Shown: positions 14,185 through 20,409 of the stretch, in pieces | Layout: every line of letters begins with the position of its first letter | How positions within the stretch are numbered: position 1 is the first letter of the stretch | Origin: a virus | Direction: 5' to 3' (one strand) | IMG/VR virus record: IMGVR_UViG_3300006030_000091 | Location: 1-26,553 of that record | DNA: 26,553 nucleotides | Notes under the pieces: generated by a model | Database searches by the model: none | What the model was told of the DNA's origin: nothing | The model's input: only the letters and a program-made list of their open reading frames with translations | Made by a program: the position numbers and the translations under genes

Positions 14185-16155
14185 TTAGAGCCATGTGGGT
14201 CGCCACTGGCGGGGTGGTAGTCGGAACCTGGATAGGTTGGGGATGTTGAGGACAGCCATCCAGAGCGACATGACGATGTCGGTTCCGCTTTTCTTTTCAC
14301 GATGCCATTTGGTTAGTTCATCTACTGCGGCGAGCGTCTTCCAGTTTCCGCGCATATGGGGGAGACGGATTGCGCCTGTGCGGAAGATGGGTGGGAGTAG
14401 GGCTTCAACACCTAGTTTTTCGTCTAGTTTGTTTTTAGTGGTGGTGTGAGGTATCACGTTGACACCACGCTTGGATTGCCACTTTCGTACAAAGTCGTGT
14501 GCGAGGAGGAATCTTTGGGCGGCGTTGATTTCTACGACGTAGTGGGTGATGGGGTATCCGAGTCGTTCGGAGCGGTCTTGCCATTCGTCCATGATGCCTG
14601 AGTATTCACCTGTGCTGGTGTTGTATCCGAGGAGGTCTTCGGCGGTGAGTTTGGTGCGTTCGATGTCGATGACGTGGTACAGGTTGTGTTCGGGTTGGTA
14701 GAGAATCCAGGTGAGCGCCCAGAACATTGTGGGGGATGGGTCGATTGAGACGATGGAGAGGATGGGTTGGGATAGCCCTGGGGGTATTTCTCCGTGGGCG
14801 CGTTCATGGTCAATACATCCGTTGTACAAAACACCGTCCATGCCTTTCCCACCATGAATCCACGTCTTGTCAATCAGATACTTGTCTAGTTCCAAGTCAC
14901 CTTGCTGATACACAACCTCAAAAACATCGGGTTTGTTCTGCTTGATAAACGACAGGTCTTTCCATGATAGGCGTTTCGGGTCTAGGAGAGGTCCGTCTGG
15001 ATATGGTGGGGCGTCGAACCTGCGGGATTCTTTCCCTGTGTCCAGTTCTGGGTAGTACGCCTGATAGATGATGTGCTTGTACTTGTAGGATTTGAGGGGT
15101 TCAAGCGCGGCTTGCTGCTCAGGAGTTGAGATATCTGAGCCGTCGTACTCGTCATCATCCATGTCATAAGTGACTTTTGCCAAGCAGTGAGCGTATAGGT
15201 CTCCTGGTCCCAGTCTTTGACCAACCACGGCGAGAAGACCGCCTGGGTCGCATCGTGCTTCTGCCACGTTGTCCCATCGTTCCAGTAACTTGTCACGGGC
15301 AACGGAATCACGTGAGTTGTCCGGTGATGACACGTCGTCAAATAGGCAGAGGTCAGCGCGGTGACCGATGAATTCCGCTTCAATACCGTACGCACGAACT
15401 GTCGGCTCTTTGTTATCCAGCCCGTTCCCGTCCAACTGTTCCACAACGAATTCATCTGCCCTCCACAAAGCACCCTTATCTGATGGTTTGAACCTGCCGT
15501 AGTCAATAGACAAACACCCCTTTGCATTTTGCGCCAATCCCTTTGCTACAAGTGCGGGGTCGGGTTCGATAGGCATGGGTCGTTCGAGTGTTTCACGGAT
15601 GCGGCGGGAGTACAACTTCGCCATGTTCTGCGAAACAGAACCAATCATGATACGAACACGACGGTCACGAACAATCGCCCATACTGCTACGTCGTGTAGC
15701 AAGGTGGACTTACCAGCACCAGGGGGGACGTTGATGACAACGAATTCTTTTTCTTCTGATTCGAGGAGTTGCACCAGTTGAAGTGCTGCTTCTACCTGCC
15801 AGGGTGACGGTACACGCCCAAGATAGTATTCGCGGAAGAACGCAAAGTCTTCTAATCCGCGTTTTGCTTCCTCACAGAGACGGTCGTGCGCCAAGGCTGA
15901 AGGTAGGTCGATGGTTTCCATGAAAGCGTTGTACTGGTCACGCTGAACACCACCTTCTTTGGCGCGTTGTTTATGGGCTGTAGCGTCTGCTAGTTCCGCT
16001 TTTGCTTGTGCAGCCTTCGCTTTGGCAAGCCACTTTGAACCAGTGTTCACGTGGATGCCTGCGGTGGCGGACGCTTGTTTGATGGATTGTCCTGCTGCGA
16101 TGGCAGCGAAGAACCGCGCTTTGTCTTGTGGCGCTACTTGTCGTGCTGTTCCCAT
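14185..16155 (-). CDS. terL: Terminase large subunit with N-terminal helix-turn-helix
   Basis: 656 aa. Walker A is PPGAGKST at 144-151, in VVINVPPGAGKSTLLHDVAV. Walker B is LCLFDDV at 269-275. The C-terminal nuclease has SIDPSPT with Asp472, VEINAAQR with Glu542, and SGTDIVMSLWMAV with Asp626, matching the acidic triad of the RNase H-like terminase nuclease. Residues 10-47 (FFAAIAAGQSIKQASATAGI, then HVNTGSKWLAKAK) form a helix-turn-helix of the kind usually found in small terminase or resolvase-type proteins. This TerL may therefore carry its own DNA-recognition domain. It packages DNA into the procapsid through the portal encoded next. No separate small subunit is visible in the window. The ATG has a poor SD. 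Confidence 0.95.
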   Translation of the reverse strand: MGTARQVAPQDKARFFAAIAAGQSIKQASATAGIHVNTGSKWLAKAKAAQAKAELADATAHKQRAKEGGVQRDQYNAFMETIDLPSALAHDRLCEEAKRGLEDFAFFREYYLGRVPSPWQVEAALQLVQLLESEEKEFVVINVPPGAGKSTLLHDVAVWAIVRDRRVRIMIGSVSQNMAKLYSRRIRETLERPMPIEPDPALVAKGLAQNAKGCLSIDYGRFKPSDKGALWRADEFVVEQLDGNGLDNKEPTVRAYGIEAEFIGHRADLCLFDDVSSPDNSRDSVARDKLLERWDNVAEARCDPGGLLAVVGQRLGPGDLYAHCLAKVTYDMDDDEYDGSDISTPEQQAALEPLKSYKYKHIIYQAYYPELDTGKESRRFDAPPYPDGPLLDPKRLSWKDLSFIKQNKPDVFEVVYQQGDLELDKYLIDKTWIHGGKGMDGVLYNGCIDHERAHGEIPPGLSQPILSIVSIDPSPTMFWALTWILYQPEHNLYHVIDIERTKLTAEDLLGYNTSTGEYSGIMDEWQDRSERLGYPITHYVVEINAAQRFLLAHDFVRKWQSKRGVNVIPHTTTKNKLDEKLGVEALLPPIFRTGAIRLPHMRGNWKTLAAVDELTKWHREKKSGTDIVMSLWMAVLNIPNLSRFRLPPRQWRPTWL

Positions 16156-17229: not shown

Positions 17230-17301
17230 GCCGCATTAGCACAACGGTTAGTGCAGTTGCCTTGTAAGCATCTGATGGGGGTTCAATTCCTCCATGCGGC
17301 T
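17230..17301 (+). tRNA. tRNA-Thr (anticodon UGU)
   Basis: A 72-nt cloverleaf. The acceptor GCCGCAT/ATGCGGC is perfect. The D stem is GCAC/GTGC. The anticodon stem GTTGC/GCATC has one U-U mismatch, and the loop CTTGTAA has TGT at 17263-17265. The T stem GGGGG/CCTCC has one G-U, and the loop is TTCAATT. Discriminator T; no encoded CCA. It reads ACA and lies 8 nt after the candidate tRNA-like RNA. Phage tRNAs often compensate for codons rare in the host. Confidence 0.88.
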
Positions 17302-17306
17302 CAAAC

Positions 17307-17947: not shown

Positions 17948-17961
17948 CGAACAAACGTTCG
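17948..17961. promoter_or_regulatory. SOS-type box CGAAC-AAAC-GTTCG
   Basis: A perfect 5+5 bp palindrome with a 4-bp centre, matching the LexA/DinR box of Gram-positive and actinobacterial genomes (CGAAC-N4-GTTCG). It is the first of three copies. It lies between the A/C tract and the early promoters, with no clear promoter right beside it. Confidence 0.6.
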
Positions 17962-18060: not shown

Positions 18061-18074
18061 CGAACGGGTGTTCG
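18061..18074. promoter_or_regulatory. SOS-type box CGAAC-GGGT-GTTCG
   Basis: Second copy of the CGAAC-N4-GTTCG palindrome, 9 bp before the CRP-like box of the first early promoter. Binding by LexA or a phage protein here could control that promoter. Confidence 0.6.
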
Positions 18075-18083
18075 GTTTGGTGG

Positions 18084-18099
18084 TGTGACGAATGTCACA
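18084..18099. promoter_or_regulatory. CRP-like box 1, TGTGACGAATGTCACA
   Basis: Exact TGTGA-N6-TCACA, perfect over 6+6 bp. It ends 10 bp before the -35 box at 18110. It lies in a 23-nt segment repeated exactly 99 bp further on. Confidence 0.65.
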
Positions 18100-18182: not shown

Positions 18183-18198
18183 TGTGACGAATGTCACA
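18183..18198. promoter_or_regulatory. CRP-like box 2, TGTGACGAATGTCACA
   Basis: Identical to box 1 and again ends 10 bp before a -35 box (18209). Confidence 0.65.
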
Positions 18199-18208
18199 TA
18201 GGAAAGGC

Positions 18209-18237
18209 TTGACATGGTGGGGGGTGTCTGGTAGAGT
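18209..18237 (+). promoter_or_regulatory. Early promoter 2
   Basis: Consensus TTGACA (18209-18214), a 17-nt G-rich spacer and TAGAGT (18232-18237). Confidence 0.65.
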
Positions 18238-18274: not shown

Positions 18275-18290
18275 AGTGACAAAGGTCACA
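18275..18290. promoter_or_regulatory. CRP-like box 3, AGTGACAAAGGTCACA
   Basis: Perfect GTGAC-N4-GTCAC core with one change in the outermost base. It ends 10 bp before TTGACA at 18301. Confidence 0.6.
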
Positions 18291-18300
18291 CGAAAAGGAC

Positions 18301-18329
18301 TTGACATAGAGTCTGAACCGTGCTACATT
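18301..18329 (+). promoter_or_regulatory. Early promoter 3
   Basis: TTGACA (18301-18306), a 17-nt spacer and TACATT (18324-18329) preceded by TGC. This is the promoter nearest to the first early gene and would give a leader of about 118 nt. Confidence 0.75.
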
Positions 18330-18333
18330 GTCA

Positions 18334-18405
18334 CTACATAGAGAGAGGGACTAGACAGGAACTAGCGAGGAGGGAGAATAGCCCTCCACCCTCTCTACAT
18401 AGAGA
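18334..18405 (+). repeat. Nested hairpins in the first early leader
   Basis: AGAGAGGG (18342-18349) pairs with CCCTCTCT (18389-18396). Inside it GGAGGG (18369-18374) pairs with CCCTCC (18382-18387). Direct repeats of CTACATAGAGA flank the structure at 18334 and 18395. It lies in the 5' leader of the gene at 18454 and has no T-tract. Confidence 0.6.
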
Positions 18406-18418
18406 ACGGGAAACAGAC

Positions 18419-18434
18419 TGTTTCACGTGAAACA
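18419..18434. promoter_or_regulatory. Exact parS-type palindrome TGTTTCACGTGAAACA
   Basis: A perfect 16-bp palindrome identical to the bacterial chromosomal parS site bound by ParB (Spo0J). It lies 20 bp before the first early start codon, downstream of promoter 3. No parA or parB gene is in the window. It is the only copy here. In RNA it would also form a hairpin just upstream of the SD. Confidence 0.8.
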
Positions 18435-18453
18435 ATAGAGAAAGGAACAGAGA

Positions 18454-18690
18454 GTGTCAGAAAAGACAAGGCGGATTACCAAAGAAGATTGGTACCTAAT
18501 CGGGTGCGCACTTCGGGAACAGTCCGAACTACTGATGAAGTGGGCGAGCAACCATGACTACTCAGAGGCAATGCGCCAAGGGTTCATGGATACGATGGAT
18601 GCGAACCTTGACCTACTCGCCTACGTGGTGAATACGAAAATGTCAGACAAGGACAGATACGGATTCTTCACCGAATTCGTGGATTGGTGA
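18454..18690 (+). CDS. Early protein, unknown, first gene of the plus block
   Basis: 78 aa from a GTG with AAAGGA about 9 nt upstream; no better start is present. Charged and helical, with DWYLIGCALREQSELLMKWA and ending RYGFFTEFVDW. No family is recognised. It directly follows three stacked promoters, nested leader hairpins and the parS-type site, so it is likely among the first proteins made. Small acidic-to-neutral helical proteins in this position often target host functions, but nothing in the sequence says which. Confidence 0.75.
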   Translation: MSEKTRRITKEDWYLIGCALREQSELLMKWASNHDYSEAMRQGFMDTMDANLDLLAYVVNTKMSDKDRYGFFTEFVDW

Positions 18691-18699
18691 ACAGCCGAA

Positions 18700-18738
18700 A
18701 CCGCGCGAGCGGTCACACGGGAACTAGCCGTCCCGTGT
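18700..18738 (+). repeat. Two consecutive perfect hairpins between early genes
   Basis: ACCGC-GCGA-GCGGT (18700-18713, GNRA loop) is followed by ACACGGGA and TCCCGTGT around an 8-nt loop (18715-18738). No T-run follows either. They may protect or separate the upstream mRNA rather than terminate it. Confidence 0.6.
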
Positions 18739-18775
18739 CTGATGAGGCAGGCTAACTAGAAAGGGAATACAACTA

Positions 18776-19221: not shown

Positions 19222-19237
19222 TGTGACGCAGGTCACA
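19222..19237. promoter_or_regulatory. CRP-like box 4, TGTGACGCAGGTCACA
   Basis: Perfect 6+6 bp palindrome. Unlike the others it directly abuts the -35 box (19238) with no gap, so a bound protein would overlap the polymerase site. Confidence 0.6.
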
Positions 19238-19294: not shown

Positions 19295-19507
19295 ATGGAC
19301 ATACAGACAGCAGAGGATGTGACGCCAGAGTGCCTGACCGAAGCAGAACAAATCTTCTGCGACTGGTTTGACAACGGTGACGAACCGATTGACTGGGAAC
19401 GATTCTGGGACAGACTGGAAACCGTGGGGTACACCGTGACCGACATGGACTCACCCGCTTGTCGCAAGATTCAGAGGCACGTCCGTAAGTTCAGGTCAGA
19501 GTCCTGA
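19295..19507 (+). CDS. Early protein, unknown, acidic
   Basis: 70 aa from ATG 19295 (MDIQTAEDVTPECLTEAEQI), with AAGAAAGGGAAA upstream. A longer open frame upstream is non-coding in character and overlaps the zinc-ribbon gene, so I reject it. It is acidic, with several Trp and Asp residues (FCDWFDNGDEPIDWERFWDR) and a basic C-terminus (CRKIQRHVRKFRSES). The DWERFWDRLE motif is suggestive of a small helical protein-protein module. Transcribed from promoter 4. Function unknown. Confidence 0.75.
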   Translation: MDIQTAEDVTPECLTEAEQIFCDWFDNGDEPIDWERFWDRLETVGYTVTDMDSPACRKIQRHVRKFRSES

Positions 19508-19612: not shown

Positions 19613-19927
19613 ATGGAAACAGTAACAGTACAAGAATGGGCGGACGAAAATGTCTACGACACGGATGCCTTCCTAATCTACCTAGAAAACGGACACGTCA
19701 AAGCGACGGACGAAATGACAGAGAGCGACCTAGAAGATAAGAAGACAGAATTTGAGGACGCATACCAAGGATGCCACGACACGTTCGCAGAATTCGTAGA
19801 AGAAATGGTGCGAGAAATTGAGGTAATCCCCGACTGGGTATCTAATCACATTGACTGGGAATCGGTAGCACGTGACTGGAGTCATGACTACTGGGAACAG
19901 GATGGTCACGTATTCCGGAACCTCTAA
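19613..19927 (+). CDS. ardA: ArdA-like antirestriction protein (short form)
   Basis: 104 aa from ATG 19613 (METVTVQEWADENVYDTDAF). AAGGGGAG precedes it; an upstream in-frame ATG at 19520 would run through a structured gap and has no SD. The C-terminal 50 residues, with HDTFAEFVEEMVRE and then IPDWVSNHIDWESVARDWSH and GHVFRN, match the last domain of ArdA. ArdA proteins are DNA mimics that inhibit type I restriction enzymes, using negatively charged surfaces. This protein is rich in Asp and Glu. Typical ArdA is about 165 aa, so the N-terminal domain is shortened. Early placement fits protection of incoming DNA. The homology is convincing; activity with the short form is not certain. Confidence 0.7.
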   Translation: METVTVQEWADENVYDTDAFLIYLENGHVKATDEMTESDLEDKKTEFEDAYQGCHDTFAEFVEEMVREIEVIPDWVSNHIDWESVARDWSHDYWEQDGHVFRNL

Positions 19928-20395: not shown

Positions 20396-20409
20396 CGAAC
20401 ATACGTTCG
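20396..20409. promoter_or_regulatory. SOS-type box CGAAC-ATAC-GTTCG
   Basis: Third copy of the palindrome, here perfect over 6+6 bp (ACGAAC/GTTCGT). It begins right after a stop codon and its flanking T is the first base of CRP-like box 5. Confidence 0.6.

Follow-up and report, generated by a model that had tools for sequence, protein, structure and literature searches.

An exact chromosomal-type parS palindrome in the early control region of a phage genome as a candidate loading site for host ParB

Results

An exact parS palindrome in a phage record

We analyzed IMG/VR record IMGVR_UViG_3300006030_000091, a virus record of 26,553 bases to which we refer as the window, and found TGTTTCACGTGAAACA, an exact copy of the 16-bp parS palindrome, at positions 18419-18434, as a first-pass annotation had claimed. 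We favor the reading that this is a working parS that would recruit the ParB of the host to the early control region of the phage, and we place the probability of that reading at roughly 0.6. Together with the window's relatives and many unrelated phages that carry parS, the site suggests that phages recruit the host segregation clamp to their own DNA. Features of the window are collected in Table 1.

Table 1. Coordinates of features in the window.
Feature	Coordinates	Strand	Basis or remark
Terminase large subunit	14185..16155	-	anchor for relatives
SOS/LexA-like palindrome CGAAC-N4-GTTCG	17948..17961		
SOS/LexA-like palindrome CGAAC-N4-GTTCG	18061..18074		
CRP/GlxR-like palindrome	18085..18098		no TTGACA close behind
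CRP/GlxR-like palindrome GTGAC-N4-GTCAC	18184..18197		11 nt upstream of P1 -35
Promoter-like P1, TTGACA-17-TAGAGT, of tandem early pair	18209..18237	+	consensus scan only
CRP/GlxR-like palindrome GTGAC-N4-GTCAC	18276..18289		11 nt upstream of P2 -35
Promoter-like P2, TTGACA-17-TACATT	18301..18329	+	consensus scan only; leader would hold parS
Folded leader RNA, branched hairpin	18342..18396	+	similar sequence in parS-less L134
parS palindrome TGTTTCACGTGAAACA, candidate loading site of host ParB	18419..18434		sequence match, relatives
First early gene, 78 aa, GTG start	18454..18690	+	
CRP/GlxR-like palindrome	19223-19236		TTGACA after 1 nt
ArdA-like antirestriction protein, early operon	19613..19927	+	
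SOS/LexA-like palindrome	20396..20409		just upstream of GTCAC-type box and TTGACA

The leftward genes of the window include terminase, portal and major capsid protein. An ArdA antirestriction protein lies on the early side, followed by a WhiB regulator and SSB on the other strand, and WhiB suggests a host among the Actinomycetota. The identical parS site is present in G001 (locus L122), a 38,450-bp contig that differs from the window at 4 of 26,553 bases. Agreement of this second contig ruled out an assembly slip, and the terminase, portal and capsid genes ruled out host contamination. No close phage was found among isolates by megablast of the phage collection with a 12.4-kb query. A terminase protein search gave 92 matching records, all below 60% identity; the 40 matches listed were 23.7-33.3% identical along part of the protein. 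In genomes of 84,980 species, relatives of the terminase were limited to nine distant Acinetobacter matches (25-29%, partial protein).

Two further features of the record were observed. A tRNA-Thr(TGT) lies at 17230-17302, and from 17150 up to it runs a stretch that by eye resembles the 3' half of another tRNA. Collagen-like Gly-Pro-Val repeats at 67-622 read open on both strands, and the minus-strand gene of G001 at these repeats matches tail-fibre PHROGs.

The window had no second match to TGTTTCACGTGAAACA within 3 mismatches in its 26,553 bases. Shuffled sequences also match at that level (at least one match in 20 of 100 shuffles, mean 0.23), so only the exactness of the window site is informative. 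By arithmetic, about 6e-6 exact matches to a 16-mer are expected in 26.5 kb, and the earlier statement that a random match is very unlikely agrees with control palindromes, which gave none. Measured from the -10 box of P2, the palindrome begins 90 nt downstream, which places it behind a promoter-like site as first described, and the gap to the GTG start at 18454, originally given as 20 bp, is 19 nt.

The palindrome is identical to the bacterial chromosomal parS, the ParB/Spo0J site of mycobacteria and B. subtilis (PMC2346475, PMC10197239). Chromosomal sites lie near oriC and parAB, whereas this one is on a phage record, beside early promoters and with no parA or parB found. Its sequence is kept while flanks change, though 53 of 78 rows in the terminase tree described below lack it. 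Noc-binding sites (NBS) are also palindromes of the ParB family. The window site is parS at both positions that discriminate the two, and the one-mismatch form TGTTTCACGGGAAACA, found in some relatives, alters one of these two positions in one half. The discriminating positions are 1 and 6 (PMC7383237).

The early control region

A promoter-consensus scan of the region gave 5 sites, compared with 2.1 in shuffles, and P1 and P2 are therefore consensus matches only. The region also contains two families of palindromes, which we take to be CRP/GlxR-like (GTGAC-N4-GTCAC) and SOS/LexA-like (CGAAC-N4-GTTCG). In relatives, TTGACA follows the CRP-like box after 11 nt in 64 of 102 distinct boxes, and the opposite-strand control had any TTGACA within 40 nt in 0 of 101. 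The SOS-like palindrome was present in 21 copies over 18 related contigs, against a median of 1, and was absent from several contigs. Upstream of the GTCAC-type box, at a place that corresponds by eye to the SOS-like palindrome at 20396, loci L130, L131 and L256 have parS or its one-mismatch form. Because CRP-like and SOS-like palindromes are also found in the early regions, the phage group appears to build its early control from putative sites of host DNA-binding proteins.

The leader at 18334-18470 is strongly structured by RNA folding (z -4.5). In the best fold of the window RNA the palindrome is not paired with itself, and its left half pairs with an upstream GAAACAG. Searches against PHROG at E 0.01 and against Pfam at E 0.1 gave no match for the first early gene. 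Among 31 early and accessory proteins scanned against Pfam, WhiB and ArdA were the sole matches with E below 1e-4, and the gene at 19295-19507, outside that set, had no match of this strength.

Directly after the first early gene, at 18693-18756, we observed a Type II hammerhead ribozyme, which scored 37.6 bits with Rfam RF02276 against a cut-off of 37. Hammerheads above the cut-off also occur in L123 (45.0), L135 (57.6) and L122, which is the same phage as the window, and were not above the cut-off in the other 8 of 11 loci scanned.

Distribution and position of the site among terminase relatives

Relatives were collected by three terminase scans, taking the best 80 of each, for 150 loci in all. 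Of these, 75 extend 2.4 kb or more beyond the terminase start on its upstream side, and 72 shorter loci were left out. The first-pass annotation had proposed checking conservation of the 16-mer in related phages: 22 of the 75 carry the site within 2 mismatches, 12 of them exactly, and 53 are without it. The site is also present in three more loci for which less upstream DNA was available. On a terminase tree of 78 rows (66 different), 13 exact, 12 variant and 53 without a site, the site-bearing rows fall in several separated clades. The fewest changes that explain this pattern are 10 for site versus none and 5 for exact versus the rest, so that there were at least 10 gains or losses of the site on the tree. 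With 53 of 78 rows lacking it, the site is dispensable in the wider group.

At 83.5-85% terminase identity, the exact site was found in eight of nine loci with enough DNA, some of them near copies. The remaining one, L134, lacks parS in a similar leader. It had been proposed at the outset that absence of the palindrome from close relatives with conserved flanks would refute the interpretation. L134 literally shows that pattern, and the presence of the site elsewhere in sister phages suggests that the proposal was too strict. Counted against the host-ParB reading are L139 and L146, which lack the site inside a positive clade, and several relatives that keep only TGTTTCACGGGAAACA.

The site was not confined to one place. 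It lies in the P2 leader in L130 and L131 (exact) and in L127-L129 (one-mismatch form), at the junction before the downstream gene in L123, L125 and L127-L129, and upstream of another early promoter in L131 (exact) and in L128-L130, L256 and L263 (one mismatch). L140, L143 and L155 have it in a different flank that is common to the three. The initial description of the site as lying in the leader of the first early gene thus fits the window and fails as a general rule. L123 and L130 align at 82% across the junction. Where L123 carries parS, a short replacement stands in L130, and an exact site belonging to L130 lies 624 nt from that parS-less junction. In L194 and L197 both halves are altered with the palindrome preserved (TGTTCCACGTGGAACA), and the one-mismatch form of L193 fits the consensus TGTTNCACGTGAAACA published for parS (PMC2346475). 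Across the relatives, the sequence persists while its place shifts between leader, gene junction and promoter-upstream slot. Constrained sequence with a shifting place would be expected of the loading site of a sliding protein and would not be expected of a fixed operator of one promoter. Since the palindrome is not self-paired in the best fold and lies upstream of promoters in relatives, it probably acts as DNA.

Partition genes and co-occurring gene families

Profile searches of the window's group, in records of mostly unknown completeness, found ParB_N (PF02195) in 0 of 16 records including the window, HTH_ParB (PF17762) in 0 of 29, and ParA AAA_31 (PF13614) and tyrosine integrase each in 0 of 19. 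By these profiles neither the ParB nor the ParA of a phage-encoded ParABS was present. The earlier observation that the window has no par genes therefore holds for PF02195, and the accompanying idea of a plasmid-like prophage with its own ParABS found no support, since G001 and further relatives had no ParB_N, HTH_ParB, AAA_31 ParA or tyrosine integrase. A ParABS elsewhere in the genome is ruled out as far as the profiles and the completeness of the records reach. One relative, G019, is probably complete because it has a 127-base direct terminal repeat; it was covered by the HTH_ParB, ParA and integrase searches and not by the ParB_N search.

We found no gene family present in all nine site-bearing and in none of nine site-free contigs, a comparison that small, fast-evolving genes could escape. 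The best tracking families were in 5 of 9 site-bearing versus 0 of 9 site-free contigs and in 7 of 9 versus 2 of 9. No candidate for a regulator gene travelling with the site emerged from this comparison, as no family fully tracks parS.

parS in other viruses exceeds chance

Exact TGTTTCACGTGAAACA was found in at least 120 IMG/VR stretches, and one control palindrome of the same composition was found in none. The 18-mer ATGTTTCACGTGAAACAT matched 155 of 50,697 phage records (E up to 2), a count that includes GenBank/RefSeq doubles and 19 Listeria records that are possibly host DNA, and two control palindromes had no match in the 50,697 records even at E up to 10. The Listeria 'LM 4-11-1/4-14-1' records consist of many unannotated pieces and were given no weight; with the doubles, they sit inside the counts of 155 and 198. 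The empty control palindromes rule out a chance origin of phage parS. A search of 20,395 E. coli records gave no match, which is a weak control because the word used was a 20-mer.

In a census of every 5+4+5 palindrome in 18 related contigs (659 kb), the median was 1 and the most frequent were GGACC (54), GTGAC (39), GGTCC (37) and CGAAC (21), of which we take GGACC and GGTCC for collagen-like coding repeats. GTTTC, the parS half-site, was counted 11 times (6 exact parS, 4 one-mismatch TGTTTCACGGGAAACA/TGTTTCCCGTGAAACA and 1 two-mismatch form). As GTAGC (11), GCAAA (12) and CAATG (12) were at least as frequent, this count alone does not single out parS. A precedes the 16-mer in 16 of 18 half-sites in the window's group and in 162 of 286 in the general sample, and the ATG...CAT extension is thus a preference that reaches beyond the group.

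Among the first 50 of the at least 120 parS-bearing IMG/VR stretches, ParB_N matched in 2 contigs, 1 of them over the cut-off; many of the 50 are short, so absence says little for each. Of 146 IMG/VR sites, 55 are inside open frames of at least 150 codons. TTGACA lies 35-65 nt before the site in 4 of the 120 stretches sampled, with about 2 expected by arithmetic, and a promoter-plus-parS scan of IMG/VR gave 115 stretches. With only 4 of 120 sampled stretches fitting, promoter proximity is a trait of the window's group and not of viral parS at large.

We picked 15 isolates by eye from the parS-bearing isolates listed. With one mismatch allowed, the number of sites per isolate is one to four, and every isolate has an exact one; one genome has up to four exact sites. 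There was no ParB_N match in 14 of the 15. The exception is Paschalis (Quhwahvirus), in which the site is inside a gene and a ParB_N protein is present, so that this phage does not count as ParB-less. In 11 of the 15 the 16-bp core lies between genes, against an expectation of 3.1 given how many windows in the same stretches are non-coding; the comparison treats records as independent, and Arian/Bo-Finn and DSS3P8/MAL1 share hosts or look alike. Gordonia phage Woes has two exact sites 421 bp apart, at 71019 and 71440, Bacillus phage vB_BcoS-136 has four sites within about 1 kb, and Glutamicibacter phage Voltaire has two with 3 bp between them, the second 20 bp before a tail gene. Sites lie next to structural genes in some isolates and occur also in a phi29-type phage and a herellevirus. 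Tyrosine recombinases were present in 4 of the 15.

The parS 18-mer was also seen in very small phages: PQ006097.1, PQ006148.1 and PQ006149.1 (bajarodino viruses), HQ264138.1 (phi-CA82) and NC_003438.1 (Spiroplasma phage 4). In the bajarodino viruses, with both strands counted, about 6 kb contains 8-12 matched places.

Discussion

The site is parS by sequence, no phage ParB or ParA was found and the recurrence is beyond chance, which makes host ParB the natural ligand; assuming that the host has ParB, we think it quite likely that host ParB would bind here. ParB loads on parS as a CTP clamp and then slides (PMC12704722). Loaded at the 16-mer with CTP, clamps of host ParB would slide over neighboring DNA to cover P1, P2 and the first genes, as follows from known ParB behavior if host ParB binds. 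Because of sliding, the early promoters could be covered from several alternative positions of the site in the early region. In Pseudomonas aeruginosa, ParB at parS3 and parS4 represses neighboring promoters (PMC5521831). The effect that we think most likely in the phage is that the ParB-coated early region would be held down or timed, with early transcription delayed or capped; only tentatively do we propose that the selected function is to affect early transcription. For a virulent phage to silence its own early genes would be a paradox except as a timing device, and this counts against the proposal. The host may also handle the early region as origin-like DNA, by tethering or SMC loading, and so draw it into its origin-organizing system. 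The first-pass interpretation is partly supported, and the silencing, transcriptional roadblock and tethering that it listed would be candidate outcomes.

Several other explanations were weighed. Host ParA and ParB might segregate or position an extrachromosomal phage genome, as in a pseudolysogen or plasmid-like carrier, with no phage par genes involved. A single parS is enough to stabilize an unstable plasmid through the host proteins Soj and Spo0J (PMC2346475), no tyrosine integrase or ParA was found in 19 records nor ParB_N in 16, the site is free in position within the early region, and the SOS-like boxes would suit an inducible silent state. However, no usual replication-maintenance protein or repressor was recognized among the 31 early and accessory proteins, and sites also occur in the phi29-type phage and the herellevirus, groups whose known members are virulent, and we regard this explanation as unlikely. 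More improbable is a decoy, in which many phage copies with exact parS would draw ParB away from the origin region of the host, so that chromosome segregation stalls. A decoy needs exactness and copy number and not position, which fits sites beside structural genes and the isolate with up to four exact copies, but the window's relatives have only one to three sites per genome, and so few would be a poor sink for a sliding clamp until infection is well advanced.

We give a little less weight again to the palindrome being the operator of a phage regulator or another host regulator that merely resembles parS. Sites do lie beside early promoters together with CRP-like and SOS-like palindromes, and the window has, by eye, an SOS-like palindrome upstream of the GTCAC-type box where some relatives have parS. 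The exact identity to the parS consensus across unrelated phages speaks against an operator, as do the lack of HTH_ParB in 29 records and of any gene family that fully tracks the site, small fast-evolving genes being those that could be missed. Least credible of all is that the site arose by chance or serves the leader RNA as a hairpin or attenuator. The two halves of the palindrome could pair in RNA and the leader is strongly structured, but the best fold engages its left half with GAAACAG, relatives carry the site upstream of promoters, and chance is excluded by the control palindromes.

The host-ParB reading can be compared with known systems. The extrachromosomal mycobacteriophages RedRock and Miko resemble the window in being phage DNA with a partition site. 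They encode ParA and ParB, whereas no par genes were found in the window's group, and in RedRock a parS locus consists of an 8-bp motif directly repeated eight times, in contrast to the chromosomal-type 16-mer of the window (PMC7157519). Already known, then, are parS itself and phage-encoded ParABS (same source); what would be new is mimicry of a host site with a new host factor, ParB. In the open-access literature, with preprints outside the search, we found no report that ParB-less phages carry host-type parS, although this does not prove that none exists. Some phages are regulated by host LexA or CRP. The wiring of early control to host DNA-binding proteins would be the same here, except that the host factor would be the partition protein ParB, whose sliding clamps and CTP switch are known from chromosome and plasmid segregation.

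Whether a borrowed host centromere is a widespread viral strategy seems to us evenly balanced. Exact parS would then have evolved repeatedly, and the host ParB-CTP clamp with ParA or SMC would act on incoming DNA, in phages of ParB-bearing Actinomycetota, Bacillota and Alphaproteobacteria, and perhaps in Microviridae and inovirus-like phages, often from intergenic leaders and usually with no ParB of their own. The 16-bp element is easily removed, which makes it a handle for testing models of tethering, silencing, SMC loading and decoy, and suitable cultured phages exist for Gordonia, Microbacterium, Bacillus and Lactobacillus, whose hosts can be grown and manipulated. If the host-ParB reading is true, the segregation machinery would join the host systems that phages exploit.
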